This document shows positions 8,574 through 32,421 of a stretch of DNA of 64,000 bases, piece after piece. A program made the position numbers and the translations under genes. This stretch comes from Diphasiastrum complanatum (taxonomy: Eukaryota; Streptophyta; Lycopodiopsida; Lycopodiales; Lycopodiaceae): the NCBI GenBank assembly GCA_029204225.1, contig CM055100.1:33507645-33571644 (forward strand), given 5' to 3'. A model generated the notes under the pieces. The model did no database searches and had not been told where the DNA came from. It was given only the letters and a program-made list of their open reading frames with translations. Within the stretch, counting starts at the first letter, position 1. The number at the start of each line of letters is the position of its first letter.

Positions 8574-8612
<39 letters not shown>
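8574..8612. repeat. (TG)n microsatellite
   Basis: A (TG)n run, mirrored as (CA)n at 32352-32376 in the other arm and much shorter there. Confidence 0.95.
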
Positions 8613-8614
<2 letters not shown>

Positions 8615-8812
8615 GCCTAATATAGCATTTGCAAGTTCAATATTCTTGTCAGCTAATTGGTATCAGAGCCATGTCTCTTGACCTTTGAGTTGTTGTACTT
8701 TTTATCTATTTATTTTTGCATATGCTATCTCTTTCTTCTTGTAGTTAACTTCAACTTAGCACATTGCTCAATACTTGTTTTGAAACTCTATTTGCCTTCG
8801 TACAATTGCTAA
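8613..8812 (+). pseudogene. EPRV leader with primer-binding site, left outer junction
   Basis: TGGTATCAGAGCC, complementary to the 3' end of initiator tRNA-Met, is followed by about 150 bp nearly matching the EPRV-1 leader at 34326-34470 (TCTTTCTTCTTGTAGTTAA; TTAGCACATTGCTCAATACT). Just before it, read on the minus strand, is a scrap of EPRV capsid-region coding (VDKNIELANAI), so two viral pieces meet head to head. The same join occurs reversed in the right arm. Viral identity ends at TTCGTACAAT. Confidence 0.8.
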
Positions 8813-8815
8813 CTT

Positions 8816-9240
8816 ATATGAAATAATAATACTATTCAAAACAAAATCATTAGATACACACCCACTAGAATAACTAAAATAAAACTTTTTGCTTATTTAA
8901 AACAAAAGTTTAATTTTAAAATTTTTTTAAATTAAAATTCTTGCATCAAGAAAATGACAAAAACTTTAATCAGTATTTAAATCTTTACTTATTTTTAAAT
9001 ATTAAATGATTGCAAGTGAAATTGTTTCCAAAAACTTATTATAAAAACACAATAAAAAATTAAAATAAATAAAACTTGACAGTTTATCGCAATTTTAGCT
9101 TTGCCAATATTCAAATTATCAAAAAACTGCTAAATCTATTTTTTCAATACAAACAAATTTAAAAATATTAAATTAATCAAAAAGATTACACAATATTTCA
9201 AGAAATAAAAATGCAATTGTTTCCTACAATAAAAGAGAAT
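8816..9240. other. AT-rich arm sequence downstream of methyltransferase gene
   Basis: Very AT-rich DNA, mirrored at about 31705-32150 in the right arm. On the minus strand it is the 3' flank of the methyltransferase-like gene. No gene is seen. Confidence 0.6.
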
Positions 9241-10448
9241 TTATTACTCCCAGAAATCATCAAGGTCATTTACATCTTTCTCTTTTTCTCGAGGAGCCAC
9301 TGTAGTGTCAACTGGCAGCTCTTCCCCAATTTCATCGATAACTGTAACCACATTATAGTCCTGAACTAGGACATCAGCAAACTTCCCTGTATCACCCACT
9401 TTTCCGCTAGCAGGAGGTTGGTGTTCTTTGGACAAGAAAATTATTGAGTTCTCGTTGTTTGAAATCTTTTCTACCTCAGCCAGTTCATCTGGCAAAACCG
9501 AAAGAGATTTCATTCTCATTTTTACAAAATCAACTAAATTGGAATCTAAATTTACTACAACAACGTACTTGCCTTTCTGAACAGCACATGCGCTTGTAGT
9601 GCCGCTACCGCTAAACAAGTCCAAAACCCAATCAGTTGGGTGAGAAAAATATCAATTAAATGAGTAATTAATTTTTGTGGCTTTTGGTAGGGACAAGCCA
9701 CGAAACCCGTCATTGGATTTTTAAGTTTTTTTGTCACGGTTGGCTATTGAAACAAGTTGCCAAAACTTGTCAGTCTGAAGGTGTTGTAAATGAAGCATCG
9801 AGCGCTTGCCGTCCAAAGAATAATAACCAATGGTTATACATTCTATTTCATTGCAAAGTCGTGCTCCTCCCAAGTTTCTGACATTGGGCTTGTACCTGAA
9901 AAAGAACATTACAGCTAAAATAAACAAAAAAATTTATATTGTTTAAGTTAATATTGTTGCTTATACTAAATTTAAAATAAAACTTTGAATTAATACGAAT
10001 TAATAAATTTTCAATTCTCGCATTATAGAAAATTAATAAAGCTTTCCGTATTGAAGCTGATTGCCAAGAGAGATGAAAAATAACAGGAGATGTTGTGATT
10101 TCAAGAAACCCTTGCATGAAACTATGGATTTCAGTGAATTTGAAAGGAGAATCATCATTTAATGATTCCTTCATCTGAAATCCATATGATATATCGGCAA
10201 TGTAGAGTGTGTAAGGTCTTTTTTTTAGAAATTTTGAAATTTCTCTACAATCGCCCTCCGCAACTGTGTAAAAGCATGGCTGATCATCGACATTTTTGGG
10301 AAGGTAAGTCTCTAAAGGATCCTCCTCCGCAATGGTCTCACCCCGTGCTAGTCTTGTCCTTTTTTTCTGCCTTCGCTCTCAAAATATGTCTTTTGAATTG
10401 CTCTAGAAGGACTTTGTTTTTCTAATCTTCGGGGGACTGAGAAAAAAA

Positions 10449-10610
10449 AAAGCAATGCTTAGCATAGGAGATAAAACATAAAAGTATAAAGAAAAAGCTA
10501 TGCTAAGCATAGGAGACAAAACAGAAGGAGATAAAGAAGAAGCTAATATGCTTAGCATAGGAGATAAAATATAAAGAGATAAAGAAGAAGCTTTGCTTAG
10601 CATGGGTGAA
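10449..10610. repeat. Intronic minisatellite built on TATGCTTAGCATA dyads
   Basis: Four units with centres near 10459, 10505, 10553 and 10598 (about 46 bp apart) each contain ATGCTNAGCAT followed by AGGAGATAAA-like sequence. The block lies in a presumed intron of the methyltransferase-like gene and is mirrored at 30340-30495. Confidence 0.85.
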
Positions 10611-11423
10611 GTAAATATCACGTCTTTAAACAAAATAAAAAATGGACTTAATGCCTCGTTTTGGCTGCTCAAAGGATAGAGCCTTTGGCACTCTTCGAAA
10701 TCCTGACAGTTTAACCTTGTACAACACAAGTGTGAAGAATTGAAAAAGATTATCTATGTTAGATATATGGGGCCTTATGTTTTTTACATCAAGCATCTAG
10801 GTGTAGGATGTTGATAGGAATAAATTTGGCATAGATGGCAAATTATGCATTTTCACTTGTAATGCCACTATTGAGCCAAAATAGAGTAAGAGGCTAAACA
10901 CTTGCTAATTAGAGTGTAGACAAGTGTAAAGTTTTTGTTTGATGAATTCCAAGAGGTCCAATAGGATTTAGAGGTGGAACCTTGTGAGGTCCAATAGGAA
11001 ATTGAGGTGTGCTTGAATATAGTCCAATAGAATTAAGAGGTGCATAGATCAATGATCCAATAGGATCAAGAGGTGACAAAATATGGTCCAATCATAGTTA
11101 AGCATAGTGGTAGCTCGTGGACCTACTAGTATCATTGTACTCCTCATTTTGAATGCAATTGATTTGGTGATTTCATGGATTTTGTGAGTTATTGGATTTC
11201 TAGCTTTCTCTCTCTACCTGAGAGCTCATGATGCATTTTCTCTCTCTACCCGAGGAGAGCAGCTTGTTTTTACTTAGATTATTTTTTGAACACTTCCCAC
11301 ACGTCTGAGTGAGAGTTGGAAGTGATTGAATGCATGTAGTAGTGTGTTTTTGCCATAGGATTCAAGATTGATCTTGAATCTCAATCTAGTCTTGATCTTG
11401 GTGCATCTACACACCTTAGGAGA

Positions 11424-11700
11424 TCACATGGAGATGTTCTTAGCCTCATAGATAGCCTTGAGACAATCCCAAGCTTCTTTGGCTATTGTACAAGTACCTA
11501 TCTCCCTCAATATCTCATTAGAGACATTCATCTTAATGTAGTGGAGAGCCATCCTAGCTCTCTTTTTGTATTTTTGAACCTCTTGAAGAACTTGTGGTTC
11601 TTCTTCAAGGCCAAGAACTATGTCCATCACGTCTTGAAGGATTAAGATGGACTCCATCCTCATCTTTCAAATTGAATAGTTTGAAGTGGAAAATCTTTCA
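11424..11700 (-). pseudogene. Ty1/copia gag fragment
   Basis: The segment MALHYIKMNVSNEIL, then GTCTIAKEAWDCLKAIYE, is the typical copia Gag (UBN2-type) core. It is isolated inside the foldback-like element and has no zinc knuckle or pol. Confidence 0.75.
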
Positions 11701-11723
11701 CTTGGTTCCAACAAAGATGAACT

Positions 11724-11732
<9 letters not shown>

Positions 11733-11767
<35 letters not shown>
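11733..11767. repeat. (TA)n microsatellite
   Basis: An uninterrupted TA run within the foldback-like element. Confidence 0.95.
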
Positions 11768-11771
<4 letters not shown>

Positions 11772-13439
11772 TACAATAAATGTTGCTACACACTCTCAAT
11801 AGGATCCAATAATGAAGTACTATCTCCTCCTATGAAAGAACTTGCAACTATTTGTGAATTGATTCTCACTAGCTACACAAATCTCTCTAAAACAAGATCT
11901 ATTTCACATCAAATGATGGACTATAGACAAAGTTAGGATCATTTACTCTTAGCATGTGTGAAATACACTAAGTAACCAAATTTGACTCGAACTCAATGAT
12001 ATTGCATGAAACAAATTGGCTATGATCTCAAAACAATGTCTAGATCACTAATAGGTGAGATTGGTACCATACAACTGTGAACAGAGATCTAACAAGCAAT
12101 CTCTTGACCAAACCAAATGTGTCCACCCAGGTCTAGGTGCCCTACCTAACCCTCTTCAAAAGCTTATAACTTCTGATTGGCTCAACCAAATGGAATGAAA
12201 CTGATTGCAACAGAGACTAGAAAAAATAGTTTCAAAACAAGCTATCAAGAAAGATAAATGGATCAATCATGAGAGAGAACTCTCAAAATAAAATTGACGT
12301 GTGGGAAATGTTCCAAAAATAATCTAAGTAAAAACAAGCTGCTCTTCTCCGGGTAGAGAGAGAAAATCATCATGAGCTCTCGAATAGAGAGAGAAAGCTA
12401 GAAAACCAATTACTCACAAAATCCACTCAATCTCAAAATCAATTAGATCCAAATGAGGAGTACAATGATACTAGTAGATCCACGAGCTACCACTATGCTT
12501 AACTATGATTGGACCACACTTTTGCCACCTCTTAATCCTATTGGACCATTGATCCATTCATCTCTAAATTCTATTGGACCATTTTCAAGCAAACCTCAAA
12601 TTCTATTGGACCCCTCAAGGTTCCACCTCTAAACCCTATTGGACCTCTTAAATTTCATCAAACAAAAGTATTATACTTTTCTACACTCTATTGGCACGAG
12701 TTTAGCCTCTACTCTATTTTGGCTAAATAGTGGCATTACAAGTGGAAATGGATAATCTATGCCAAATTTGGTCGTATCAACATTCGACACCTAGATGCTT
12801 GATATAAAAAAACATAAGACCCCTATATCTAACATAGATAATCTTTTCAATTCTTCACAGAATCTTCATCGTAGTCTCGTTCAAAATGAAAATAGAATGA
12901 GACTTATCCATCTCTTTTACCAGGATGTTCACAAAACCTTCTTCCTCATCCTCATCCGGTTGACCAGCAAGCAATCTGCCTGGAATATAAAAGTGTGAAT
13001 CCCGCCTGCCAGGCTTCTCTGCTAAATGAATAAAAAACTCAGAGAGCTTTGTGTTGTTAACTCCTCTGGTAAAGTAGTACATGAATTTTTTGTTGTCTTT
13101 CATTGGGACATCTTGAGGTTTGTCCGATATTTTGAAAGAAATCTTCAATATTTTGAAAATTAGCATAAAGAGGACACAATCTACAAAGAAGAAGGTTCTT
13201 GAGTAAAATTTCAAACATCATCTTAATAAAAATATTGAAAACTTAAAAAAAAAAAGCAATTTTAGACTAAAATCTCTAAAAATTACTAAAAGCCATGTAA
13301 TTTTTGTAATATTTAATAATAGATTCAAATGATTTACAAGTATCTAAGACCAAGGAGAAGCACATATTCTTGCAAAAATGTCTCAAAATTTTCACTTTGA
13401 GAAACTGAGGCTTGCAACAACTGTGGAATACGAGTCCTG

Positions 13440-13960
13440 ACCTATGCTGAGCATAGGTCGGCTCTTCGATCCTCTTCTCACCTATGCTCAGTATAGGTGG
13501 TCTCTCAAGTAATCTCCAACCACCTACGCTCAGCATAGGATGTCTTCGCACCCCTGACTCTCACCTATGGGAGAGACTATGATGAGCATAAGTGAGAAGA
13601 GGATCGAAGAGCCGACCTATGCTCAACAAAGGTCAGATAAGAAGTAAGAAGCAGAACTATGCTAAGCATAGGTGGGCGCTTAGTACCCGAACACATCCTA
13701 TGCTGAGCATAGGTGGTTGGAGATTACTTGAGAGACCACCTATGCTGAGCATAGGTGAGAAGAGGATCGAAGAGCCGACCTATGCTAGCATAGTTTAGAT
13801 AAGAAGTAAGAAGAAGAACATGAAGGGGACATGTTATGTCCCCTTCAAGTTCTGCTTCTGTTAAGCATAGGTGGCCGCTTAGTACCCGAACACATCCTAT
13901 GCTGAGCATAGGTAATAGGAGGAGACTCAAGCGACCACCTAAGCTGAGCATAGGTCACCT
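13440..13960. promoter_or_regulatory. Left array of ACCTATGCTNAGCATAGGT palindromes
   Basis: About eleven full or decayed copies of a 19-bp dyad occur here, with centres near 13449, 13489, 13530, 13623, 13663, 13704, 13747, 13786, 13904 and 13947. Neighbours are about 40-43 bp apart, roughly four helical turns. A decayed copy lies near 14025, and another (ATCTATGCTTAGCATAAG) at 15335, just before the transposase start. The array separates the methyltransferase-like gene (minus) from the transposase gene (plus). That position and spacing suggest cooperative protein binding on one DNA face. The binding protein is unknown. Confidence 0.8.
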
Positions 13961-15380
13961 ATGTTATAAAAAGTGAAACTCTTTTAGACAAATGAATATT
14001 CAGTAGTTTCCATAACTTGTTACCCATGCTAAACATAGAAAGGAGTTTAGAAATGACACGAGTCTTACCGTGAAGGAATGTGAGCATGGGAATGTATGCA
14101 AATAACTATGGGAATCCGTGATTTGTCACAACGAGAGTTCTGGCAGCATGTGTGCTTCTGAATTTGCAAATGAGCTGACTAGGGTCCTGAAATAAATTCT
14201 TTTTTGGGACACCCGCCTCACGTCACACGCCAACTTGGAGTTTGTACTTTTTTTTTTTTTGGAATCCCGCCTCAGGCCTCACGCCAACCTGGAGTTTGCG
14301 TCGGAACCGAATTAACGTGGCTCAATCTGACTCACGCTGAACTCATGGGCCTATGTCGAGACCGTGCTTGCCTAAACCTAAACCTAATCTAGACCTAATC
14401 CTAGGTTGACCCTAACCCTAAGGATGCACCCATATAGTATTTAAGGCTTGGTTGTTCCCGATTCCAATTGACTGCTCTATTTCTAGGCTTGTTTCTTATT
14501 TGCATTTAGCTATTTTCCTTATTCGAGTCTATTGAGATTCGCATAGCTTTTTTTCTTGTTCTATGACCAGCATATGTTAAATTTACACAAGCTAGTTTGC
14601 ATAATTACCACTTGTAAATGACTTTGAGGCCATGTCGTGGGATGTCACACATGCCAAAAGAATAGGACACCTGATTCTAAGTCAAATCATTAACCTATCT
14701 TTAGAATGGTACCTTTGGGATATGTCCAAAGAGTGTATAAATAGGGTAGAGAAAAAGTAGGAGCTAAAAATAGCATTTTTCTCATTGTTTTTGGATCTAT
14801 TTTTGGTGTTGTGCATTTTTGGATTTTCTAGATATTTTTGCAAATGTTTTCTGAATGGTGTGAGATCGAAAAATGGGATGGTCGAAACTCGATCAACATC
14901 AATGACCAAGGTCAAATGGAACGAACAACAAAAAATAAAAAACAAAAACTGAAAGGTATTCAAGGAAGATAAAAATTGTAGATGGAGTCAGATCAGATCT
15001 ATCATAAAAAAAAATTGCAATTTTTCTAATGGCGAGTAATAGGTAAGTGCGAGTAATTGATGAACAATCCTAATTACTCACCAAGTATATTGTGAATGAT
15101 GATCATAACTTACTATATAAAGTGCGAGTAAAAAAAAAGAGCCTCTTTAGGCTAGATGTTAGGCTTAGGTTATGATGAATACATAGAAGCCCTAATATCT
15201 TCAGATCCAAGCACAACGTATAAATATGTGATGGGATTTTCATCCAATTATGAGCAAAATCGAGATTTTCCTTCTTGACTAGTTTGAGTCTATGATCTGA
15301 TTGATGAATGCTATTGGCATAGATTTTTCTTTGAAATCTATGCTTAGCATAAGTCTTAAGTAAAAAAAAATGTAAGGTTA
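13961..15380. promoter_or_regulatory. Intergenic arm region with likely transposase promoter
   Basis: No gene is visible here. The stretch holds a short duplicated CCGCCTCA...CACGCCAACYTGGAGTTTG block (14205-14300), telomere-like CTAAACCTAAACCTAA words near 14385, and TATATAA at 15114-15120 followed by GTGCGAGTAA. That TATA box is about 265 bp before the ATG at 15383, suiting a promoter with a leader. About 320 bp including the TATA (roughly 14810-15135) are absent from the right arm. Confidence 0.5.
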
Positions 15381-15382
15381 TG

Positions 15383-17433
15383 ATGTCAAGTAGTTCTACC
15401 TCCTCAATTCTAGTAGTTGTAACTCAATATATTGCAACAAGTGCATCATCTTCATCTGAAATTCCCAATGATAGTTTTTTTTTTATAAAGTGACTCTTGA
15501 TTCTCAACATGTTTCTGTAAATGATGTGGCATCATTATCATTTACCCATTCATCATCTGAAATTTCTCATGTAAGTACTTTTCAAGAAATGACACGTTTG
15601 CAATCTATTTTAATATCATGATGGTATCTTTATTTTATTAAATATGTTCATTGTATTTTCAGTGGATGCTGCAAAAGCCCTTCAAGTGCACAGAGATCAA
15701 CAAACAATTGAAAGACAAAAGTTGGCCAAGCACCGAAAGAAATGTTTGGAATGTCCACAAAAGTATCTCGGCCTTGTTATTGACGACATGGACCAGAAGA
15801 AAACAATATTGCCTCATTCTGTTAGAATGCCCAAATATTTAAAGGAGACAAATTTTATTCAGGTTTATCTCGTTAGAGCACTTGTGTTTAATGGCACTTT
15901 GGAGTCCAAACTCTTTTTCAATTATCCCAACATTCAAGATCACCATTGTACATAAGATAATTTGCAAATTTGGTGAAAATCTTTTAGAAATACTTTACTT
16001 ACAACTTGACAACACTGCTAGGAAAAATGAAACCAAACTGTTTTGGCATATTTGTCTATGCTAGCAAAGAAAAAAAATCTAAAAAAAATACAAATAGGAT
16101 TTTTGTTGGTAGGGCATACCCACAATCAAATTGATCAAATCTTTAGTTGTTTTTCTAAGAGGTTGAGATGCAAGAAGGCATTTTATCTACCAGTGTTTCA
16201 AAGCATTGTCGAGGAATTGTATGTGCCAAAGCCAAACGTGTCATTAATCAGACACACATATGATTTTCGTGATTATGTTAAGGCGTACAATGAAATAGAG
16301 CGATGTCTAGTTAATATTAATGATATTAGATTTCAGCACCAATTTAAAATCAAATGTAATGAATCAAACATTATATTATTATGGGAAAAACTATTTTCAA
16401 ATTTAGTTTCATGGCTGCCTCTTAAAGAAGTTCGATTTTTGCTTAGCATTCTATCGAAACAAATCAAGCTTGTTGTGTTGTCTCCCTTGAAGTCCATGCT
16501 AGAAGAACAAAAGGTGCAAAGAGAACATCGTGAGATCGATCCATTTGCCTCATTAAATTTTTTTGGAATCAAGTATTCAAGCAGCTTATCATTTTTTTGA
16601 TGAGGTTGATCAACATTGGTGGATGGACTTTTTCGAGAAACAAAAAATTAGTTTGCTCAATCTCAAACATGCATCAACAATTGAAGAATTTTATTGGCCT
16701 CATAAAATGGGAACTTCAACTACAATTGTCGAACCTTCAAATCTTCCTCGAGATAATAATTTCTTGCAGCTTCTGCAAGGTGAGGAACGTGAAAGTTATG
16801 TGGGCTCAAGGAAGAATAGGCAAAGTGTAAAAGCTGCAAAAATAAAATGGCACGGTGATTTGAATGAAATCCAAATTGAAAGCCTTGTTGCACTTCTAGC
16901 TTCAGAAAACAATGAAGGACATCCATTTTGGATTGCCAAAGTACTTGGATTTATTTAAAATAGCAATCAGACAAAAGTACTATGTGTCCATTGGTTGCGC
17001 ACCACTTCAACGAATGTTTTTTTGAGAAGGTATAAATTTGAAATGTTGCAAGTAGATCCAAAGGGCAAAGAGAAAGAGATTGCCAAAAATTCAACCAAGA
17101 GTCGACGATTTGAATTTACCAGATGTAGATTTTTTGGCATTTAATTTTGAGTTAACAATGACCAATCATCTACAAAAGTTAATTATATCTATATTAAAAG
17201 AATGACTTGGATTAATGAAAAATCCATCATCTTCCACTCGTCATCAACAGAGAAAAGCTGATTTACAAGATTTTTTGTTAACATTAGGTGCAAATTCTAA
17301 GAAAGATATGCCAGTTGACTTTGATGAAGAAGATGGGTCTTCCACTTCATCAGCTGAAAACGAGAGTGTTGAGAATATGTCAAGTTTTGAATTGAGAGGC
17401 GTCAATGAAAATTCTATAGAAAATGTACTTTAA
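15383..17433 (+). pseudogene. DUF7869-like DDE-type transposase
   Basis: The gene starts MSSSSTSSILVVVTQY at 15383, inside the left arm, and passes a GTAAGT donor near 15571 into the loop. The RNase H-like core has the ordered acidic motifs expected of DUF7869 proteins: VIDDMDQ near 15780, LQLDN near 16000 and VGHTHNQIDQIFS near 16110. A C-terminal part (about 16563-17100) has HPFWIAKV and VHWL, resembling the reader-like tail of such proteins, and an S/E-rich end stops at 17433. Two compensating frameshifts (about 15955 and 16050) and another near 16580 make this copy inactive. Family knowledge: DUF7869 proteins are repetitive in several eukaryotes and look like transposases, but I recall no demonstrated activity. 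Confidence 0.7.
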
Positions 17434-17464
17434 AAACTTGTGCTTGTAGACCCATTTACACTTG

Positions 17465-17467
<3 letters not shown>

Positions 17468-17520
<53 letters not shown>
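17468..17520. repeat. (TC)n microsatellite
   Basis: A clean TC run just after the transposase stop codon. Confidence 0.95.
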
Positions 17521-17522
<2 letters not shown>

Positions 17523-17589
17523 TATGTAGATAGCTAGGACCGTTCCAAGTTTCAAAAGAAAGAGATGGAGAGAGAGAAAGAAGAAATGA

Positions 17590-19042
<1,453 letters not shown>

Positions 19043-19499
19043 TTACATTCCAATCATGAGTTTAAATAACACCTCTTATTTATATTTTGTGAAGAAGCAC
19101 ATTGAATACATATCTTGCATGTTTTCACTATAATGCACACAGACTAAATAACTCTATCTATGACTCCTATTTCTCCTAAGTGGTTGCTTTTGCCGTGCCG
19201 AGCGAGTTGAAGCAGAACGGTTGAGCGACACCGCCCTGCCGCATAAACTCCTGCATAATTATAAAACAATAGAGCTTCTATTAGTTTACCAACGTGTTCA
19301 GAATAGGTAGGTAGAGAAAAGAGATACAACGAGAAATGATTTAGGGGAGAAAAATGGTGGAGAGAGAAAAGGTACAATACCTCCTCGCTCTCTTCGTGCT
19401 CCGGCTGAGAAACAGAAGATAGTATGAGGCTTTTTTTGACTAATTGAAATCTCAGTGAGGACATTACATGTGAAAAACAGAATACAAATATATGAACAC

Positions 19500-19735
19500 T
19501 CTAGCATTCGCAAGTTCAATATTCTTGTCAACTAATTTTTGTAACACAAGAGTAGAAAACGAAAGAGGAAGCTTATGTATAAAAGCAAGTTAAATGGCAT
19601 GTTCATGATGACCTTGAAATTTGTAAATCAAATGTTTACAATGCTGGACAAATTCTGAAATATGATTAATATCACACAATTGTGCACTATTAAACGCTTC
19701 TTAAGCAAGGGCTTTATCGTTTTATTACTGGCCAC
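19500..19735 (-). pseudogene. EPRV capsid-region fragment at right inner junction
   Basis: The minus strand matches EPRV-2 on both sides of its solo LTR (before 44110 and after 45022): words for ISEFVQHCKHLIYKFQGHHE and then VDKNIELANA. Here no LTR interrupts it (continuous at 19665-19676). The fragment begins exactly where pairing between the two arms stops. Stops and a frameshift make it non-coding. Confidence 0.85.
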
Positions 19736-19874
19736 ATCATTCACAAAAACATGTTGAGAATCAAGAGTGACTTTATAAAAAAAACTATCATTGGGAATTT
19801 CAGATGAAGATGATGCACTTGTTGCAACATATTGAGTTACAACTACTAGAATGGAGGAGGTAGAACTACTTGAC
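19736..19874 (-). pseudogene. Orphan first exon of the transposase gene (right arm)
   Basis: MSSSSTSSILVVVTQYVATS and what follows is the mirror copy of the start of the transposase gene at 15383. It runs into the EPRV fragment instead of the catalytic exons. The upstream TATATAA found at 15114 is missing in this arm. Confidence 0.8.
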
Positions 19875-19931
19875 ATCGTAACCTTAATTTTTTTTTTAAT
19901 TAAGACTTATGCTAAGCATAGATTTCAAGGA

Positions 19932-22908
19932 AACAGTTGACACATAAAACTAAATGATTTGATTGAGGCATCAACAAGTTTGTGCATTTATCCTCATCAA
20001 AAATGATATCTCTTGAAACACAAACTTGTTGGAAAAATGGAATGTATACCTTATATCCCTTGCTTGCTTTGCCATACCCAAGCATAATACCTTTGATTGA
20101 TGATGGATCTTCCTTGGTCCTTTTCTCCAAAGGTGTATGCACATAGCAAATGCATCCAAACACCTTTAAGTCATAGAGATTTGGCTTCCTCCCATACAAG
20201 ACTTCAAAGGGTGTTTTGCCTTCAATAGAGCTACATGGAACTCTATTCATCAAATGGTTAGCACAAGCGAGAGCTTCTCTCCAAAAAGCTTTTGGTAAAC
20301 ATGCATCAATCCTTAAGTCTTTAGAACATTCACACAATGTCCCGTTCCTCCTCTCGGCTACCCCATTTTGTTGAGGGGTGTAGGGACAAGATAATTCTTT
20401 TTTGACCCTTCTTGATCACAAAAATCTTTAAAAGCATTGGAGATATACTCTCCACCATTATCACTTCTACAAGTTTTGATCTTGTGATCAAGATGCTTCT
20501 CAACAAATGCTTTGAACTTAAGAAAGATTTCAAATACTTGTGATTTAGATAAAAGTAAGAATACCCAACAAAACCTTGAGTAGTCATCTATAAATATAAC
20601 AAACATGGTGGCACCTCCATTGGACGTTGTACTTGCAAAGTAGTGTATAGCCACTCAAGTTGATGAGTTGTCTTTGTGATTGAGCTTGAGAAGGGCTTCT
20701 TATGTACTTTTGAGAGAGCACATGCTTCACATATTTTCTCCTCTTTTGCCAAGGATCTTGGAAGTTGTAAGGCAAGCTCCTCCTTGCACACGACCTCCAT
20801 GGACTTTGAGTTGACGTGACCAAGTCTTTTGTGCCAAAGACTATGGTTGGATAGTTTGGTCTCCTCGGCTAGCGTCACAATATTAGCATCCACATAGGCA
20901 TCTAAGTTGAATAATCTTCCAAATCTTATGCCTCTAGCAATGATCTTGCCATCCTTCTTGATGTTACATGCATTTGTGGTGAACTCCACAATCAAACCAT
21001 TGTCAAGCAATTGTCCTACACTAAGCAAGTTCTTAGTGGTACTAGGAATGGAAAGTATTCCATCAATCTTGATCTTCCTTGAAGATCCCAAGCATAAAGG
21101 TATGGATCCTATGCCTTCTACCTTACAAGCATAATCATTTGCTGTAAAAACTGACTTGATAGGTCCATCATAGGTAGATAAGTTTGAGAAATACTCCCTC
21201 TTACTTGTCATGTGGGAGCTAGCCCCACTATCTATCCACCAAGGGTCTTCACCTCTTATGCTTGAAGATGAGAAACTTGACATCATGAGTGAATCTTCAT
21301 GAGAGCTCTCCTCTTCCTCTCTGACTAGGTTTGCTTGACTTTGAGATTGCTTCTTCTTGAAGCACTCCGAGGCATAGTGCCCCATCTTGCCACAAAAGTA
21401 GCATTTGATCTTTGACTTATCCTTCTTTGGCTTGCTCGAGCTTGGACTTGAAGATCCTTCTTGGTCTTCACCTTTGACTTGATTCTTCTTGAATGCATCA
21501 CCCTTGCCTTGGATTTGCTCTTGCTCTTGGTGAAAAGAGCCTTGTCATCTCCATCATTGAGGGAGAGCTTCTCCATCCTTAACTTGATGTGAGTTCTCCT
21601 ACTCTCCTCGGCCATGAGGACTCCTTGGAGATCTTCAAGTGAGGGCAACTTGCCCATAATTGCATAGCCTTGCACTAGCTAGCAAAGTCCCCACTCAAAC
21701 CATTCAAGATTAGTTGAACAAGTTTACTTTCCTTAATGGAATCTCCTATGTAAGCAAGCTCCTTGTTTAAGTCCTTAACTCTCAACACATATGAATGTCC
21801 ACTCTCTCCTATAGCTTAAAAACATTGAAGGATTTAATTCTTCAAGTATAGCAACCTTGAAGTATTCTTGGATTCATAAATCTTTTGAAAAGTTTCCCAT
21901 GCTTCTTGAGCCGAGGTGCAAGCACCTACTTCCTTAAAATGCTCATTAACTACATTCATTTTTATACAATGGAGAGCAACCTTGCACCTCCTTTTGTATT
22001 TTGTAGCTTCTTGAGGGTGAATGGGCTCATCCTGTCAACAAGAATGGAAACTAGCTTGAATTTGCATAAAAAATGGATCTAGAATTGCCTCCTCCTTGAT
22101 CTCGACTTTACAAGGATATAAGATTCACCTAACTTGACCAAAAGGAATATTATGCACATAAATGCCTCTTCAAATCATTCCTACGAGATCAGGTTGAATC
22201 ATCATGCAATAATCAATCCAAACTATCTCACAAATCAAGCAAAAAATTGAACACAATCTTGACTAGAATTGCATTTGTTGATGAGCACTTATCAAAGTCT
22301 TTGAGCTGACCCCAAAATTGAATTTCTAAGACCTCAATAAGTCTAAGAATGACCTATTACAGTACCAAAGATAAGGATCTACCTTTCTTTTGATTGATTG
22401 AAAACTATTCCTTGTGATAGACTCCACAGATCGAGTAGCATCAATACTTGCTATTTTGATCCAATTGATAAGAGATGACCATAACTCAGATTTTGAATCT
22501 AGAAAGTCTATAAATAGAAAACCATTAGATCCATCTTCACTCAAATTGATCAAGATTTGAAGGTACTACTCATAGATTATGTCTAGATAGCAATCAATGC
22601 TTGAGTTGCATCAAAGTCTATGATTCTAGCATGAAGTGAAGCTCATTTCTTGGAATGGCTCTGATACCATGATAAAAATGCAGCAAAATAATCCCATTTG
22701 ATCCCAGAAATGATGGAGAAAGCACCTACTTAAGATCCAAACAAGATCTAGAAGCTAGATTACTAATCAATGCATTGATTCCTAGCTTATCTTGGCTTGA
22801 ACTCCATGAATTAGCTCCAAAACTCTTCACACGTGTGAAAGTATGGCCTACTACTACCTGTGTACTGTACCTACAACTCCAAACTCATTCAATCATCACA
22901 ATTTTTTT
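19932..22908 (-). mobile_element. Ty1/copia element, copia-1 (3' truncated), nested in right arm
   Basis: Right-arm identity with the left arm stops at about 19931 and resumes at about 22908. The PBS complement GGCTCTGATACCA is near 22658-22670, so a 5' LTR of roughly 230 bp lies at 22675-22908 and contains TTCACACGTGTGAA. Gag follows (about 22080-21325), then a zinc knuckle (CYFCGKMGHYASECF near 21400). The protease has WWIDSGASSHMT near 21230. Integrase begins with LWHKRLGH and CEACALSKVHKKPF, and its core (20654-19912) shows FIDDYSRF and CRSDNGGEY. Reverse transcriptase, RNase H and 3' LTR are absent. Frameshifts occur near 20620 and 20340 and in gag. Confidence 0.85.
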
Positions 22909-23879
22909 ATGCCAATAGCATTCATCAATTAGATCATAGACTCAAACTAGTCAAGAAGGAAAATCTCGATTTTGCTCATAATTGGATGGAAATCCGATCA
23001 CATATTTATACATGTAGAGCTTGGATCTGAGCATATTAGGGCTTCTATGTATTCATCATACCTAACCCTAACATCTAGCCTAGAGATCCACTTGATCCTC
23101 AGGGTCAATGCCTCGAGATCCAAAAACAATGAGAAAAATGCTATTTTTAGCTCCTAGTTTTTCTCTGCCCTTTTTATGCTTGGACATATCCCAAAGGTAC
23201 CATTCCAAAGCTAGGTTAATGATTTGACTTAGAATAAGGTGTCCTATGCTTTTGGCATGTGTGACATCCCACGACATGGCCTCAAGGTGATTTACAAGTG
23301 GTAATTATGCAAACTAGCTTGTGTAAATTTAACATATGCTGGTCATAAAACAAGAAAAAAAGTCATGCGAATCTCAATAGACTTGAACAAGGAAAATAGC
23401 TAAATGCAAATAAGAAACAAGCCTAGAAATAAAACGGTCAATTGGAATCGGAAACAACCAAGCCTTAAATACTATATGGGTGCATCCTTAGGGTTAGGGT
23501 CAACCTAGGATTAGGTCTAGATTAGGTTTAGGTTTAGGCAAGCATGGTCCCGACATAGGCCCATGAGTTCAGTGTGAGTCGGATTGAGCCACGTTAATTC
23601 GGTTCCGGCGCAAACTCCAGGTTGGCTTGAGGCCTGAGGCGGGATTCCAAGACAAAAAAAAAAGTGCAAACTCCAAGTTGGCGTGTGACGTGAGGCGGGT
23701 GTCCCAAAAAAGAATTTATTTCAGGACCCTAGTCAGAGCATAACTCACCTCATTTGCAAATTCAGAAGCACACATGCTGCCAGAACTCTCGTTGTGACAA
23801 ATCAGGGATTCCTATGGTCATTTGCATACATTCTCGTGCTCACATTCCTTCACGGTAAGATTTGTGTCATTTCTAAACT
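22909..23879. other. Right-arm intergenic sequence, no gene
   Basis: Mirror of about 14020-15320. Retained features are the CCGCCTCA-type duplicated block (23610-23710) and telomere-like ATTAGGTTTAGGTTTAGG words near 23520. The stretch with the transposase TATA box is missing. Confidence 0.6.
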
Positions 23880-24510
23880 CCTTTCTATGCTTAGCATGGG
23901 TAACAAGTTATTGCAACTACTGAATATTCATTTGTTTAAAAGAGTTTCACTTTTTAGAACCTAGGTGACCTATGCTCAGCATAGGTGGTTGCTTGAGTCT
24001 CCTCCTATTACCTATGCTCAACATAGGATGTGTTCGGGTACTAAGCGCCCACCTATGCTTAACAAAAGAAGAACATGAAGGAGACATAGCATGTCACCCT
24101 CATGTTCTACTTCTTACTTCTTATCTAAACTATGTTGGCATAGGTCAGCTCTTTGATCCTCTTCTCACCTATGCTCAGCATAGGTGGTCTCTCGAGTAAT
24201 GTCCAACCACCTATGCTCAGCATAGGATGTGTTCGGGTACTAAGCGCCCACCTATGCTTAGCATAGCATGTCCCCTTCGTGTTCTACTTCTTACTTCTTA
24301 TCTGACCTATGTTGGGCATAGGTCGGCTCTTCGATCCTCTTCTCACTTATGCTCAACATAGGTGGTCTCTCGCATAGGTGAGAGTCAAGGGTGCGAAGGC
24401 ATCCTATGCTGAGCATAGGTGGTTGGAGATTACTCGAGAGACCACCTATATTGAGCATAGGTGAGAAGATGATCGAAGAGCTGACCTATGCTCAGCATAG
24501 GTCAGGACTC
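23880..24510. promoter_or_regulatory. Right array of ACCTATGCTNAGCATAGGT palindromes
   Basis: Mirror of the array at 13440-13960, with about twelve full or decayed dyads (for example near 23890, 23972, 24010, 24052, 24168, 24212, 24252, 24310, 24348, 24406, 24446 and 24489). It lies 5' of the right methyltransferase-like gene. The dyad centres survive better than the sequence between them. Confidence 0.8.
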
Positions 24511-25733
24511 GTATTCCACAGTTGTTGCAAGCCTCAGCTTCTCAAAAGTGAAAATTATGAGACATTTTTGCAAGAATATGTGCTTCTCCTTGTCTTAGAT
24601 ACTTGTAAATCATGTGAATCTATTATTAAATTTTACAAAAATTACATGGCTTTTAGTAATTTTTAGAGATTTTAGTCTAAAATTGCTTATCTTTTTTAAG
24701 TTTTCAATATTTTTATTAAGATGATGTTTGAAATTTTACTCAAGAACCTTCTTCTTTGCAGATTGTGTCCTCTTTCTGCTAAATTTTTAAAATATCGAGG
24801 ATTTCTTTTAAAATATCGGACAAACCTCAAGAAATCTCGTTGAAAGACAACAAAAAATTCATGTACGACTTTACCAGAGGAGTTAACAACACAAAGCTCT
24901 CTGAGTTTTTTATTCATTTAGCAGAGAAGCCTGGCAGGGGGGATTCACACTTTTATATTCAAGGAAGATTGCTTGCTGATCAACCAGATGAGGATGAGGA
25001 AGAAGGTTTTGTGAACATCCTGGTAAAAGAGATGGATAAGTCTCGTTCTATTTTCATTTTGAACGAGACTATGATGAAGATTCGACTCTGCCAAAATGAC
25101 GCTATCAAAACTTACTTTGATAAAGCTCTTGTGACTTTGGTATGTAATCATAAATCATGTTTTGAATTTTGTTTATTAACATGTGTTCTATGCTTAGCAT
25201 AGTGTTTGACTAATTATAAAATTCCTAGCACCTTGCAAGCAATAGATCTCTTATTAAAATTGAGTAGTCTTATCCTGAGCATAACTCATATAAACTTCTT
25301 TGCTCATTATGCTATAAACCTGTATTTTGTTTGTGTTCAAAGCATAAAGCAATGCTTAAAATTGGTGCTAACTGCTATTGCAGAGGGGAAAGGTCCAGTA
25401 TTTTCATTACAGAGTGCTAAATCTGTATCTATGGGACCTCACAAGCCTGCTTCTACCACTGCTCAGGTCACAAAACCCACCACTGAAAATGTTGAGGCCA
25501 CCGTAGCTGCCCCTCACCCAAGAAAAAAAAGATCACACAATATTTTTGAATCCTCACCCACGAGACCCAAGTCCCGCCCAAAGACCATGGGCCGCCATAA
25601 GGCATTCCTTCAGTTGAAAGCAAAAAAGATGTATCTGGACCTACTATGTCTTTACTTGGTGCTTCCATTTGCCCCCTTCAAGACACCTCTAAAATTGCTA
25701 AATTTAGAGATGAAATTCATAAGATATTGACCA

Positions 25734-28700
25734 TGTGATAGGCCTCCTGTTGATCCAATAACTGGAGATAGGCCAATGGAAGTAAGAGAACCTAACGAAA
25801 TGTGAAAAGTACAGTACTAAGGACCGTAAATGGATCTTTGAATGATGCACAAGGTTGATTGTGTGCTTGTTAAACAATCTATCAGATACTAATCATTAGA
25901 AAACAAGATTTAGTTTAGCAGCTTGATAGAAAACAAGTAGAGACAATCAGAGCATTAATCAAAAACTATAATCCAAGTTCCCACGTGTGAAAATCAAGCT
26001 GTAGTAGCTCCAAAAAGTTTCTATTTTCTCACTATGGAGAATGGGAATACATAGTTAAAGACACTTCTTTTGCCAAGTTAGGTGAAAATCCAGCATGTAA
26101 TAAGGAAGTAGACTCAACTTTCTTGCCCTAATGTGAAAACCCTAGCCTAGATCCAAGAGTCATGCTTGGTAGGTGCATGGTAGGTACAAATCTCATCATG
26201 AATCATGGTCTAGATCCTACAAAGTAGGAATCACTACCAAATGGACACAACCACTCCTCTTGACTCGTGGTAACCTACTTTAGGTGTGGATTTAAAGTGG
26301 CATTTTGGCCATTCAAGTGACTAACAAAAAATATTGACAAAATGTGCAATATTCTACATGGCTAGATTTGCCAATGTAGGCAATTTTTCACACTCCTACT
26401 CAAATCTAGCCTTGGAAACCACAATACTTTTATCAATCACTCCAATTGAAGATCTAAGCTTGATAAATGAATCTTTAGGTAAAGATTTAGTAAACAAATC
26501 AGCCAAGCAACTCGATGATGACACATGTTGGAGCTTGATCTCTTTGGCTTGCACTTTCTCCCTCACAAAATGATGAGCAATATCGATGTGTTTGCTCCTT
26601 GCATGGAATGTAGGATTAGTTGCAAGTGATTGGGCTGATTGGCTGTCACAATAGATGATAGGGATATCCTCCTCCATGACATGAAGCTCCACCAATAGCC
26701 TTTTGAGCCACAAGACCTCCTTGCATATTGATGTCAAGGCCTGTGGAAGATTCTTCCTTTTTGGAAAGCCATGATATTACTCCATCACATAGAAAGGTGG
26801 CAAAAGCACTTGTTGATCTTCTATCCACTTTGTCACCTGCAAAATCCGAGTCACTATAGGATCTTAAGCCAAGATTAGTCCCTCTATACAAAATGACAAA
26901 GTTCTTAGTAGATGAAATGTATCTAAGAACTCTTTTGGCCATCTTCCAATGTGAAACTAGAGGACTTTGCATGGATTGGCTTAACTTTCCAACACTGTAA
27001 CTTAGATTAGGTCTAGTTATAGTTAAATAAATCAAGGAGCCAGTAAGCCTTCTATATAATGTGCTATCCTCAAAGGATGTTTCATCACAACCAATAGATG
27101 CTTTTGCATGTTGCTCCATTGGTGTCTCAATGCCTTTACAATTCCTCATTCCAAATCTATCTAGGATGGATGTGGCATATTTAGATTCACAAATAACTCT
27201 AAAATCACATCCTCTAATAACCTCTATTCCAAGAATGAAGCTCAATAGGCCGAGATCTACCATCTTAAACTCTTTTTCTAAAGCAATTTTTACATCTCTA
27301 ATTTCATCTAGATCATTACCACTCAAGATAATGTCATCTACATACAAAACAAGAATAATGATCATGCCATCATGAAATCTTATGTACAATGATGGATCAT
27401 AGGCACTCAATACAAAATTGATGGAAATGAGAAAAGATTTTAGCCTAGAGTACCATGCTCTAGGTGCTTGCTTGAGCCCATAAAGGCTCTTCTTCAAGAA
27501 ACACACCTTTCCTTCATGCTTTGCCTTGATGAACCCCTCGGGTTGCCTCATGTAGATCTCTTCCTCCAAATAACCATTGAGGAATGCATTTGTGAAGTCA
27601 AGTTGGAATAGCTCCCAATTGAAGGTTGTAGCAAGACTAATGATCAACCTGATAGTAACAAGCTTAGCCACAAGAGCAGAAATCTCATCATAATCAATGC
27701 CTTTGGTTTGTAAAAAACCTTTGGTTACAAGCCTAGCTTTATGCCTGCTTATTGATCCATCTTGATTATACTTCAATCTAAATACCCACTTGCAATCAAG
27801 AGGTTTCTTTCCTTGAGGAAGATCCACAAGATCCCAAGTATGATTCTCAATGAGAGCATCATACTCTACTTGCATAGCATTCACCCAACTTTTAGATTTA
27901 CATGCATCTTCATAGCATGTTGGCTCATCTAAAATTGAAGTAAGAAAGGTGTAAGATGTGAAAGATGATGAGCCTTCCCTTTGATCACCTTGACCATCAT
28001 AGGTGAGCCTCAGTGGCTCAGTCCTTGCCATTGTAGATCTTTTTGGAGTTATTGCATCTTGAGGTGGATCCTCAAGTTCTTCACTTGGAAGCTCCTCCTC
28101 CATCCTAGCATGATCCTTGGCATCAAGATGATTAGTAACATTATCGTCCAAATCACAAGCATGTCCTCCATAAAAAATAACATCCCTACTCACTATCACC
28201 TTGCTAGTGACTGGGATTCAAGACTCTATATCCTTTGTTATTCTCAACATATCCCACAAAGATGCCTTTGATGGATGTTGCATCATCCTTCTTCCTCTTA
28301 TCCAAGGATTGGTGTACATAGCAAGTGGATCCAAAAACCTTGAGATCCTTGAGATTCAAATAGAACTTCAAATGGTGTGATTCCTCCAATGGCTTGGTTA
28401 GGCAATCTATTGCAAAAATAATTAGCACAAGTTATTGTTTCACCCCAAAATGGTTTGGATAGAGAAGCATCTAGCCTTAAGGCCTTAGCACACTCACAAA
28501 GAGATCTATTTCTTCTCTCACTCACTCCATTTTGTTGAGGGGTGTACGGACATGACAACTCCCTCTTTATGCCATTAGAACTACAAAAGTCAATCAACTT
28601 ATTGGAGATATACTCGTCTCTATTATCACTCATTAATACCTTAATCTTGGTACTAAGTTGATTTTCTGCCAAAGTCTTGAACTTTACAAAAGAATCAAAC

Positions 28701-29389
28701 ACCATAGATTTGCTCGACAAGAGTACATCCAACAATAATTAAAATAGTCATCAATGAAGATTACATAATATTTGGCACCACCATTAGACTCATGTGAAAA
28801 GCTATGAACATCCAAATGGATGAGTTCAAGAAGAGAGCTTGATCTTGATGTTGATCTTGAGAAGGGTAGTTTGTGAGCCTCTGAGAGGCTGCATGCTTCA
28901 CATCTCTTCCCACACTTTGACAAATGCTTGGGGAGTTCAACTGCAAGCTCCTTTGCAACCATAGATTCCATGGCTTTGAAGTTGGGGTGGCCCAACCTTT
29001 TGTGCCATAGTTCCACCTTTGATAACTCCAACTTTGCCAAGTTAACACTCTCCACTATAATATTAGCATCAAGCTTAAAAAATCTACCTTGCTTAAAGCC
29101 TTTGGCTATACATTCATCATTTCTAAGGATGGAACAAACTCCATGCTTAAATTGTACATCAAGCCCATTATCCATTAATTGGCCAATACTAAACAAATTC
29201 TTGATTAACTTAGAAACATAAAGAACATTCTCAAGATTCATCCTTTTGGATGATCCAACATACAATGAAATGGTTTCTATTCCACTTATCTTACATTCTT
29301 GACTGCTTGCAGTATAGATTGATCTATGTAAATTATTGTAAGAAAGTAAATTGGAGAAAATGTCCTTTTGATATGTCATGTGGGACAGT
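25734..29389 (-). mobile_element. Ty1/copia element, copia-2 (5' truncated), nested in the methyltransferase gene
   Basis: It reads integrase (29379-28300; LWHKRLGH, GVSERRNRSL), then reverse transcriptase (28199-26760). The RT shows QLDFTNAFLNGYLEEEIYM and LYVDDIILSGND, with a complete YVDD box. RNase H (26737-26400) has YCDSQSAQSLA and HVSSSSCLADLFTK. The 3' LTR is 25734-26392, starting TGTGAAAAATTGCC and ending TATCACA. The protease is cut within its S-H-M-T motif at 29389, so the 5' LTR and gag are gone. The RT frame is long (about 490 codons), making this one of the least decayed pieces of the window, though INT/RT frames are broken near 28200 and 26740. Confidence 0.88.
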
Positions 29390-30339
29390 TATCCCAAGAA
29401 TATCCTCATATTCCCTCTTTCCGAACCGTTAGTGCCATTGCATTTACTGGCATGATAGTGGAAGAAGTAATATTGCTCACTTGAAATCATAATATTGATT
29501 AGGACTACCGCATGAAAATGACCGTAATACAAAGAATTCAATTTTTTCATAAGGAATATATGAGAGTCTCAAAAATTGGAGATGTGAATCAATTGGAGCT
29601 TAAGGCAGTTTGAGCTCAAAACACATGCCTGCCGTTTGATTCAAAAAAATCCTACGTAGAGCCTTACAAAATACGACAATTTTTTTCAACTTGCTTTCCA
29701 TAGTGGTCAGGTAAATTTTTTTTTTAAGCTTGGCTTGGAATGTTCTGTTCAAAATTTATATTATTAGATTCAAATTTTGAAATTTATTTTAGTATTTCTA
29801 ATGCTTTTAAATAATTAAATTTTTTTTTGATTCTAGGTATGGACCCTTGTTGATAAAATTTTTGACAAGTGGGAGAATTTTCAAATAAAAGGCCAACCTA
29901 CTCAAGGTGCCTCGAAAGGAAAAAAAAAAAAGTTGTCATCTCTCAAACTCTAAAGCCAATCCCTACAGAAATGGGAATATCAGAGTGGAAGAACATGCAA
30001 GGGATTAGCTTGTCGGAGCTAATAATAAGTGTTCTTTCTAGAGTTGGTGATAGTCAACTCTCCCTTGCAAAAATGGGGAAGGAATTTCAGAGGTGATATT
30101 TATTTTCAGGTCTTTTTTTTTATATGACGATTATCAAGATTTAGAAGTATTTCTAACAATTACATGTTTTTAAATGCAGACATAAATTGTTTATGAAAGT
30201 TCGAGAAGCCCTTGTGTTGTACAAGGTTAAACTGTCAGGATTTCGAAGAGTGCCAAAGGCTCTATCCTTTGAGTAGCCGAAACGAGGCATTAAGTCCATT
30301 TTTTATTTTGTTTAGAGACATGATATTTACTTCACCCAT

Positions 30340-30495
30340 GCTAAGCAAAGCTTCTTCTTTATCTCTTTATATTTTATCTCCTATGCTAAGCATACTAGCT
30401 TCTTCTTTATCTCCTTTTGTTTTGTCTCCTATGCTTAGCATAGCTTTTTCTTTATCTTTTTATGTTTTATCTCCTATGCTAAGCATTGCTTTTTT
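30340..30495. repeat. Intronic TATGCTNAGCATA minisatellite, right copy
   Basis: Four units mirrored from 10449-10610, spaced about 46 bp, within the intron before the motif-IV exon. A T-run follows the last unit. Confidence 0.85.
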
Positions 30496-31700
30496 TTTTT
30501 TTTTTCTCAGTCCCCCGAAGATTAGAAAAACAAAGTCCTTCCAGAGCAATTCAAAAGACATTTTTTGAAAGGAAAGGCAGAAAAAAAGGACAAGGAAAGA
30601 CTAGCACGGGGTGAGACCATTGCGGAGGAGGATCCTTTAGAGACTTACCTTCCCAAAAATTTTGATGATCAACCATGCTTTTACACAGTTGAGGAGGGCG
30701 ATTGTAGAGAAATTTCAAAATTTCTAAAGAAAAGGACTTATACACTCTGCATTGCCGATATATCATATGGATTTTAGATAAAGGAATCATTAAATGATGA
30801 TTCTCCTTTCAAATTCACTGAAATCCATAGTTTCATGCAAGGGTTTTTTGAAATCACAACATCTCTTGTTATTTTTCATTTCTCTTGGCAATCAGCTTCA
30901 ATATAGAAAGCTTTATTAATTTTCTGTAACGCGGGAATTGAAAATTTATTAATTCGTATTTTAATTCAAAGTTTTATTTTAAATTTAGTATAAGCAACAA
31001 TATTAACTTAAACAATTTGAAATTTTTTATTTATTTTAGTTGTAATGTTCCTTTTCAGGTACAAGCCCAATGTCAGAAACTTGGGAGGAGCGCGACTTTG
31101 CAATGAAATAGAATGTATAATCATTGGTTATTATTCTTTAGACGGCAAGCGCTCGATGCTTCATTTACAACACCTCCAGACTGACAAGTTTTGGCAACTT
31201 GTTCCAATAGCCAACCATGACAAAAAAACTTAAAAATCCAATGACGGGTTCCGTGGCTTGTCCCTACCGAAAGGCACAAAAATTAATTAATCATTTAATT
31301 GATATTTTTTTTCACCCAACTGATTGGGTTTTGGACTTATTTAGCGGTAGCGGCACTACGGGCGAATGTGTTGTTCAGAAAGGCAGGTATGTTGTTGTAG
31401 TAAATTTAGATTCCAATTTAGTTGATTTTGTGAAAATGAGAATGGAATCTCTTTCGGTTTTGCCAGCTGGCTGAGGTAGAAAAGAGTTCAAACAACGAGG
31501 ACTCAATAATTTTCTTGTCCAACGAACACCAACCTCCTGCTAGTGAGAAAGTGGGTGATACAGGGGAGTTTGCTGATGTCCTAGTTCAGGACTATAATGT
31601 GGTTACAGTTGTCGACGAAATTGGGGAAGAGGTGCGAGTTGACACTATAGTGGCTCCTCAAGAAAAAGAGAAATATGTAAATGACCTTGATGATTTCTAA

Positions 31701-32150
31701 GAGTAATAAATTCTCTTTTATTGTAGGAAACAATTGCATTTATATTTCTTGAAATATTGTGTAATCTTTTTGATTAATTTAATATTTTTAAATTTGTTTG
31801 TATTGAAAAATAGATTTGGCAGTTTTTTGATAATTTGAATATTGGCAAAACTAAAATTGCAATGAACTGTCAAGTTTTAATTATTTTATTTTTTCATTGT
31901 GTTTTTATAATAAAATTTTGGAAATAATTTTACTTGCAATCATTTAATATTTAAAAATAAGTATAGATTTAAATACTGATTAAAATTTTTGTCATGATTT
32001 AAAAAATATCTTTGTTGATGCAAGAATTGTAATTTAAAAAAAATTAAATTAAACTTTTGTTTTAAATAAGCAAAAGTTTTTATTTTAGTTATTCTAATGG
32101 GTGTGTATCTAATGATTTTGTTTTGAATAGTATTAGTATTTCTTATAAGT
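31701..32150. other. AT-rich 3' flank of methyltransferase gene
   Basis: Mirror of about 8816-9240. It is AT-rich, with no gene seen. Confidence 0.6.
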
Positions 32151-32345
32151 TAGCAATTGTACAAAGGCAGATAGAGTCTCAAAACAAGTATTGAGCAATG
32201 TGCTAAGTTGAATTTAACTACAAGAAGAAAGAGATAGCATATGCAAAAATGAATAGACAAAAAGTACAACAACTCAAAGATCAAGAGACATGGCTCTGAT
32301 ACCAATTAGTTGACAAGAATATTGAACTTGCAAATGCTATATTAG
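32151..32345 (-). pseudogene. EPRV leader with primer-binding site, right outer junction
   Basis: Inverted copy of 8613-8812. The complement of the PBS (GGCTCTGATACCA near 32293) is joined to a plus-strand scrap reading VDKNIELANAILGF, which belongs to the EPRV capsid region. A (CA)n run follows at 32352-32376. Confidence 0.8.
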
Positions 32346-32421
32346 GCTTTACACACACACACACACACACACACATATTTCATAGGTCCCGCGGTACTGG
32401 ATAAGAGATGGAGCCTCTATG

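Follow-up and report, generated by a model that had tools for sequence, protein, structure and literature searches.

Can a DNA transposon of a land plant carry, beside its transposase gene, a gene for a DNA methyltransferase of bacterial type? The question is raised by a locus of the lycophyte Diphasiastrum complanatum that lies in a window of 64,000 nucleotides (the whole stretch of DNA analysed here, C9:33507645-33571644 of a 1.74-Gb assembly of 5176 contigs). An initial annotation of this window described two decayed, divergent genes, one encoding a protein similar to beta-class DNA amino-methyltransferases and the other a transposase with a DUF7869 domain, and proposed that they belong to a new element. 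Judged by sequence comparison with its relatives in the same genome, the pair is what remains of a DNA transposon with two genes and terminal inverted repeats (TIRs), in which the methyltransferase (MTase) and DUF7869 genes diverge, and the earlier reading of a transposon pairing a DUF7869 gene with a bacterial-like MTase is supported.

What are the two genes? Both are recognized in the window by Pfam matches as well as by mapping of their homologous blocks, and the divergent arrangement of a decayed MTase-like gene on the minus strand and a decayed DUF7869 gene on the plus strand is confirmed. The DUF7869 match (16031-16600, +) scores 87.8 bits against a cut-off of 26 (E 8.9e-25); the transposase remains extend overall over 15383-17427 (+) and consist of a Ser-rich first block (15383..15534), the DUF7869 core with its conserved acidic motifs (VIDDMDQ / LQLDN / VGHTHNQIDQ; 15662..16558) and a C-terminal part (16569..17427). 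This gene probably encodes a DDE transposase. The N6_N4_Mtase match on the opposite strand (9244-9651, -) just clears the cut-off of 26.7 with 27.1 bits (E 4.7e-6) and is marginal when taken alone. A better copy elsewhere in the genome (L024) reaches 49.8 bits to PF01555, motif I included, and the family cut-off is passed by all 150 scored candidates, the best 150 of 1605 first-look matches in the whole genome.

Searches of the PDB with the block that contains motifs X and I (7M3 alone), used as a single copy and also as a 13-copy profile, place CcrM and RsrI first (E 2.4e-8 and 2.3e-8, respectively), followed by DpnA and MboIIA (9.2e-7 for the latter), with the cytosine enzyme PvuII as a weaker match (E 0.0031). 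DpnA and MboIIA, in their PDB entries, and CcrM, in the family search, are annotated as adenine enzymes; RsrI also is an adenine enzyme. The methyltransferase match proposed initially thus holds in profile searches, and the C-terminal part of the predicted protein is assigned to the beta-class N6_N4_Mtase family, with RsrI and CcrM as its closest PDB entries. The METHYLTRANSFERASE protein is made up of seven blocks that are homologous among copies and keep their order (1N, 2L, 3P, 4K, 5K2, 6IV, 7M3), with a predicted length of ~940 aa from an ATG start, a C-terminal beta-class domain and a unique N-terminal part of ~580 aa. Wherever a mapped copy retains 6IV and 7M3 together, 6IV comes first in the coding direction, which corresponds to the beta order of motifs IV, X and I.

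Given that the enzyme class is bacterial, contamination from bacteria or phages, or a chance adjacency of unrelated genes, has to be considered. Blocks 2L and 3P are continuous, without an intron between them, and most other block borders carry GT or AG in the three copies examined (the exceptions are L022, without GT after 5K2, and L015, without AG before 2L), so that the MTase is a eukaryotic gene. Introns and copia elements also identify the host as a eukaryote. These intron signals argue against contamination, as does the distribution of the 150 scored matches over large and small contigs. Nor was any close prokaryotic or viral relative found that could have been the source of the MTase: tblastn against phages (63 records) and plasmids (at least 5000 records) gave only matches below 60% identity, the 40 matches listed having 24-36% identity over 33-71% of the query, and tblastn confirmed none of the hits of pattern scans of viral contigs (89 matches) and genome contigs (57). 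Contamination or accident is therefore extremely improbable.

Do the two genes recur together? Around MTase matches, 20 loci of 9.9 kb were picked by hand, mostly for long open frames and blind to DUF7869; one of them (L009) covers the side of the match on which no transposase would be expected. Transposase blocks are present in 8 of the 20 (L014, L015, L016, L019, L020, L022, L024 and L026), and block-wise queries place the genes in divergent orientation in all eight. The expected recurrence as divergent neighbours is thus borne out, with two full-length copies that share the same ends. A further locus (L012) has only a short same-strand match to the Ser-rich first block and was left out of the count, and the remaining 11 hold no transposase block within the 9.9-kb stretch. 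Among three additional loci, L039 contains a divergent pair, perhaps as a duplicate of L020 at a distance of 39 kb, and L038 and L040 contain none. In 60.1 kb of control sequence (the flanks L029-L033 and the window outside 8.5-32.4 kb), no block of either gene was matched. Furthermore, crossing the two lists of top 150 matches yields three MTase-DUF7869 pairs within 12 kb against 0.31 expected, two of the three divergent, which is weak when taken alone.

The genome holds 2953 first-look candidates for DUF7869, and the best of them come from a second family, which accounts for 8 of the 8 loci fetched (L041-L048) and is 32-53% identical to the blocks of the window. One of its members (L047) retains an open frame of 471 aa; a sequence search with a protein of this family gave no solved relative.

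Several observations concern the arrangement of MTase matches in the assembly. Near-identical or equal-score twins (L004/L005, L010/L011), often on small contigs, suggest retained haplotigs or recent duplications. The near-identical copies L001 and L002 (C24:5145209 and 5185290) are ~40 kb apart, and C22:12333634-12347135 contains four MTase matches in ~4.5-kb steps; both cases are suggestive of local or tandem duplication.

Does the gene pair lie within a unit with defined ends? The two complete copies, L024 (C4) and L022 (C5), align from end to end over ~8.8 and 8.5 kb, gaps apart, and the similarity stops at both ends. An 11-bp TIR, AACAYRRTGAC, was found at five left and four right ends from seven loci (L012, L015, L019, L021, L022, L023 and L024), the outer flanks of which (up to 600 bp) have no mutual match at E 1e-5. 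The complete copies are both bounded by target-site duplications of 4 bp, GGAA in L024 and CTAC in L022, read by eye in these few copies. L022 alone would also fit a 10-bp TIR with a 6-bp duplication; the 11-bp TIR with a 4-bp duplication is favoured because the outer A is present at 9 of 9 ends.

Exact matches to the 25-bp right terminus, GTCCCAAAACAAATGTCATYGTGTT, number 346 in the 1.74-Gb genome, compared with none for the reversed control. Pairing, for which 100 of the 346 right ends were used, gave seven combinations of a right end with a DUF7869 match, all on the same strand, against 0.21 expected (among the matches listed). The distance from the right end to the low coordinate of the DUF7869 match, itself ~0.55 kb long, is 1.86-1.89 kb on the plus strand and 1.28-1.37 kb on the minus strand. 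Five listed right ends pair with a listed MTase, in each case on the opposite strand and on the upstream side, as the unit predicts; four of these belong to loci where the terminus had already been seen (L015, L019, L022, L024) and one is new.

Compared with the complete copies, the copy in the window is a decayed relic within a long inverted repeat (8587..32375, 23.8 kb overall) with matched arm segments that are 89-97% complementary. In the left arm, the MTase remains (9247-13145, -) comprise 7M3 with motif X, motif I (DLFSGSGTT) and the C-terminal tail (9247..9897), 6IV with motif IV, here DISY (10001..10403), a remnant of 5K2 (10619..10750) and the N-terminal block 1N, which matches no known domain (12861..13145). 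Blocks 2L-4K are gone, replaced by a foreign insertion (10780..12830, borders approximate) containing part of a copia gag (11424-11666), and block tA is missing from the transposase. The right arm holds a second, fuller MTase (24792-31703, +) with remnants of all seven blocks: an open 1N (24792..25142), 2L and the start of 3P (25341..25799), the rest of 3P with 4K and 5K2 (29386..30322), and 6IV with 7M3 (30544..31703). A copia element on the minus strand (25800..29385, borders approximate; RVT_2 at 26646-28217) splits block 3P, and the first transposase block (19727..19876, -) is the sole one found in this arm. The initial annotation was right about the two decayed divergent genes of the left arm and overlooked the fuller MTase of the right arm as well as the loss of blocks 2L-4K and tA.

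Neither terminus was recognized in the window copy with up to one mismatch allowed. Its left end, near 8.6 kb, runs into a microsatellite and LTR-type (long terminal repeat) TGGTATCAGAGC sequence; because these lie inside the matched arms, the inverted duplication is probably younger than the terminus damage, i.e., the element would already have been damaged when it was duplicated. The repeat with TGGTATCAGAGC, which we take to be similar to a tRNA-Met primer site, is present in three copies in the window (8654, 34309 and 41471), suggesting the remains of an LTR retrotransposon.

Was the MTase ever of use to the element? It might have been a passenger, a fragment captured by chance as in Pack-type elements and without a role, and the 3-9 premature stops in the MTase of the five fullest fetched copies would fit such an origin. 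The ratio of nonsynonymous to synonymous divergence (dN/dS; NG86 on tblastn-aligned codons, with stops dropped) speaks against it. Among young pairs (dS <0.2), the MTase has values of 0.36-1.02 and the transposase of 0.40-0.98, the pattern that copies in decay should show; among pairs with dS >1, where NG86 is unreliable and the values are rough, the ratio falls to 0.09-0.27 and 0.09-0.25, respectively. The medians are 0.19 for the MTase (233 pairs) and 0.36 for the transposase (27 pairs), the pairs being non-independent and those with saturated dS outside the medians. Purifying selection acted on both genes over long periods in the past. Since its dN/dS is 0.09-0.27 in deeply diverged pairs, the MTase was kept by selection, in a manner similar to the transposase, and the gene order is kept in diverged subfamilies as well; a passenger is very improbable.

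The order of divergence agrees between the two genes (Spearman 0.95 over the 22 pairs with finite dS in both). At synonymous sites, nevertheless, the MTase half has diverged 2.2-4.3 times as much as the transposase half wherever the window or L014 is compared, and therefore it is possible that halves of the element have been exchanged between lineages.

What might the product of the MTase gene act upon? A candidate is provided by a 19-bp palindrome, ACCTATGCTNAGCATAGGT, which together with its variants is iterated between the two genes and in the MTase introns of several copies, not all. Matches to CTATGCTNAGCATAG with at most one mismatch in the 15-bp core number 25 in the window, all of them within 8.5-32.4 kb, whereas 100 shuffles gave 0.01 on average. 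Eight form the array that separates the genes (13442..13953), in line with the palindrome-rich intergenic region noted initially; three lie in the intron between 5K2 and 6IV (10453..10560); a single one (15338..15352) starts 45 bp 5' of the transposase open reading frame (ORF); and the right arm has an array of its own (23885..25202). These positions are shared: a palindrome follows block 5K2 immediately in all three copies examined for introns, and in the window, L015 and L024 another precedes the transposase ORF by ~45 bp. The spacing is mostly 40-42 bp (in some cases 53-54) in the subfamily of the window and often 28 bp in L027, a deeply diverged locus with synonymous sites saturated relative to the window copies. 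No palindrome was found in L029-L033 (20 kb of flanking DNA), in the remaining 40 kb of the window on either side of 8.5-32.4 kb or in the eight fetched loci of the second DUF7869 family (3.6 kb each). With respect to covariation of the two palindrome halves, only the pair of positions 4/18 is clearly above independence (114/143 against 97.9 expected); general symmetry covariation was rejected, the other positions reflecting plain conservation.

This arrangement could serve the control of transposition, with the MTase marking palindromes that bind the transposase or belong to the promoter, so that the methylation state times jumping or transposase expression; Dam regulates the bacterial IS10 in a comparable way. 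Such control agrees with where the palindromes lie, namely within the promoter region common to both genes, 45 bp ahead of the transposase ORF in the window, and within MTase introns; the long-term purifying selection on both genes agrees with it as well. The termini, where a transposase acts, have no palindrome (with at most one mismatch) near them in either of the two complete copies, and we consider this explanation unlikely.

We tentatively propose, at somewhat less than even confidence, that the element encodes a self-addressed DNA writer, an anti-silencing system by which it marks its own DNA. The N-terminal part of the MTase, or a partner, would read the palindrome array, and the enzyme would write an amino-methyl mark on the element, with N6-adenine a more likely target than N4-cytosine. 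The mark might keep the bidirectional promoter open, or shield it from host cytosine methylation, and the open promoter would then allow the element to express its transposase. Silencing would thus be countered through the addition of a foreign mark and not through the erasure of the host's own. An anti-silencing role is preferred because of the parallel with VANC (see below) and because, according to published work, plants have lost the AMT1 pathway for N6-methyladenine (6mA), a mark that accompanies permissive chromatin in the eukaryotes where it is present (PMC12695648). The more specific proposal, a land-plant DNA transposon with its own N6-adenine (or N4-cytosine) writer aimed at its own promoter via the palindrome, i.e., a private bacterial-type code in a nucleus without the AMT1 6mA pathway, is one that we advance with slightly greater reserve.

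The opposite outcome is conceivable as well, namely that the host reads the mark of the element and silences it, which would lower the cost of the element. N4-methylcytosine (4mC) on bdelloid rotifer transposons, written by N4CMT, promotes silencing (PMC8885841). That enzyme, however, is encoded by the host and has a chromodomain; the gene described here is element-borne, and no Pfam chromodomain was detected in the pieces scanned, so that self-limiting silencing of this kind is improbable.

Several results weigh against a self-addressed writer. First, the catalytic motif is atypical. The canonical consensus of motif IV is [DNS]PP[YFW], and over 17 copies we find DIPY (nine), YIPY, NILY and DISY (two each, the last in both window copies), NIPY and DITY, that is, neither DPPY nor SPPY, with DIPY differing at the second position only. 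Second, motif X (PYQK..QQ, with a nearly invariant K) and motif I (DLFSGS.TT) are invariant across 13 aligned copies, which were chosen by the motif I pattern, making the invariance of motif I partly circular. Third, the predicted reader has no recognizable domain: a Pfam scan of blocks 1N-4K gave nothing convincing, and AlphaFold2 (AF2) models of the N-terminal blocks are worthless (pLDDT, the predicted local distance difference test, 34 for 3P and 34.5 for 1N). Furthermore, every fetched copy with the greater part of the MTase contains stops. Seven MTase loci (L012, L016, L017, L023, L025, L026 and L038) have no palindrome with at most one mismatch, including two, L016 and L026, that hold both genes (four and one, respectively, at a laxer threshold). 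The best DUF7869 matches belong to the second family and the MTase is therefore not general to DUF7869, as far as its 3.6-kb loci can tell, from which an MTase 5 kb away would escape notice. Finally, the transposase could be the palindrome reader instead of the predicted MTase, and the uncertainty of dS above 1 and the unequal divergence of the two halves belong on the same side of the balance.

The motif IV variants, the partial circularity of motif I and the conservation of a long, unique N-terminal part would also fit a sequence-specific DNA-binding regulator, an activator or repressor of the element in which catalysis was lost or never needed. Motif X, conserved in the 13 copies, is what would be expected had S-adenosylmethionine binding been selected, and a non-catalytic regulator seems to us rather unlikely. 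A ParB-like domain in block 3P, seen by eye (VLGGIHNLQAWKQL), was rejected as well, having no support from Pfam, PHROG, NCBIfam or the PDB, no phage match and an AF2 pLDDT of 34; the three phage/plasmid MTases scanned, out of four fetched, are likewise devoid of a ParB domain.

If the proposed self-addressed writer is real, the mark should sit on the elements, which would offer a direct test of the contested question whether 6mA or 4mC work in plants, and nature would have supplied an enzyme for placing a foreign mark at sites of choice.

How does this element compare with known systems? In the literature searched, to which most subscription journals and preprints are external, there is no mention of DUF7869; with Repbase likewise external to the search, no eukaryotic DNA transposon with a beta-class amino-MTase is among the matches listed. 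A study of an N4-cytosine MTase in Marchantia reportedly exists, which our literature searches did not find. Compared with RsrI, CcrM and MboIIA, the predicted protein has the same motif order (IV, X, I) and differs in its DIPY motif and in the fusion to a unique ~580-aa N-terminal part.

Transposons with epigenetic enzymes or regulators (C5 methyltransferases, TET/JBP, SET, VANC) are known from the literature, and the combination with a beta-class amino-MTase was not found in the literature searched. The N4CMT of bdelloid rotifers, stated in that study to have no eukaryotic homologs, is likewise a permuted (beta) MTase of PF01555 encoded by an intron-containing gene of a eukaryotic nucleus, but that gene belongs to the host and is not mobile, whereas the MTase described here is element-borne (PMC8885841). 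Retrotransposons of dinoflagellates and charophytes carry C5 cytosine DNA methyltransferases and, as here, a multi-copy mobile element brings its own DNA methyltransferase; those, however, are retrotransposons with host-derived C5 enzymes, in contrast to a TIR DNA transposon with a predicted bacterial beta-class amino-MTase (PMC5890265). Fungal DNA transposons (KDZ, hAT, IS3EU, EnSpm, Helitron and others) carry a TET/JBP dioxygenase, for which escape from silencing has been proposed (PMC12730594). These also place a captured DNA-modifying enzyme beside the transposase, but TET/JBP oxidizes 5-methylcytosine, whereas the enzyme of this element is predicted to add an amino-methyl group.

The parallel with VANC of the VANDAL (MuDR) elements concerns the arrangement as a whole. 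VANC binds tandemly arrayed motifs in the non-coding DNA of its own element and causes loss of silencing; the motif of VANC21 is the 9-base YAGTATTAY, and VANC21 is not described as an MTase in the text cited (PMC5735166). In both cases, a second element-encoded protein is accompanied by tandem short motifs in non-coding parts and introns, and the difference lies in the 19-bp palindrome of the Diphasiastrum element, a putative binding site, and in its predicted MTase.

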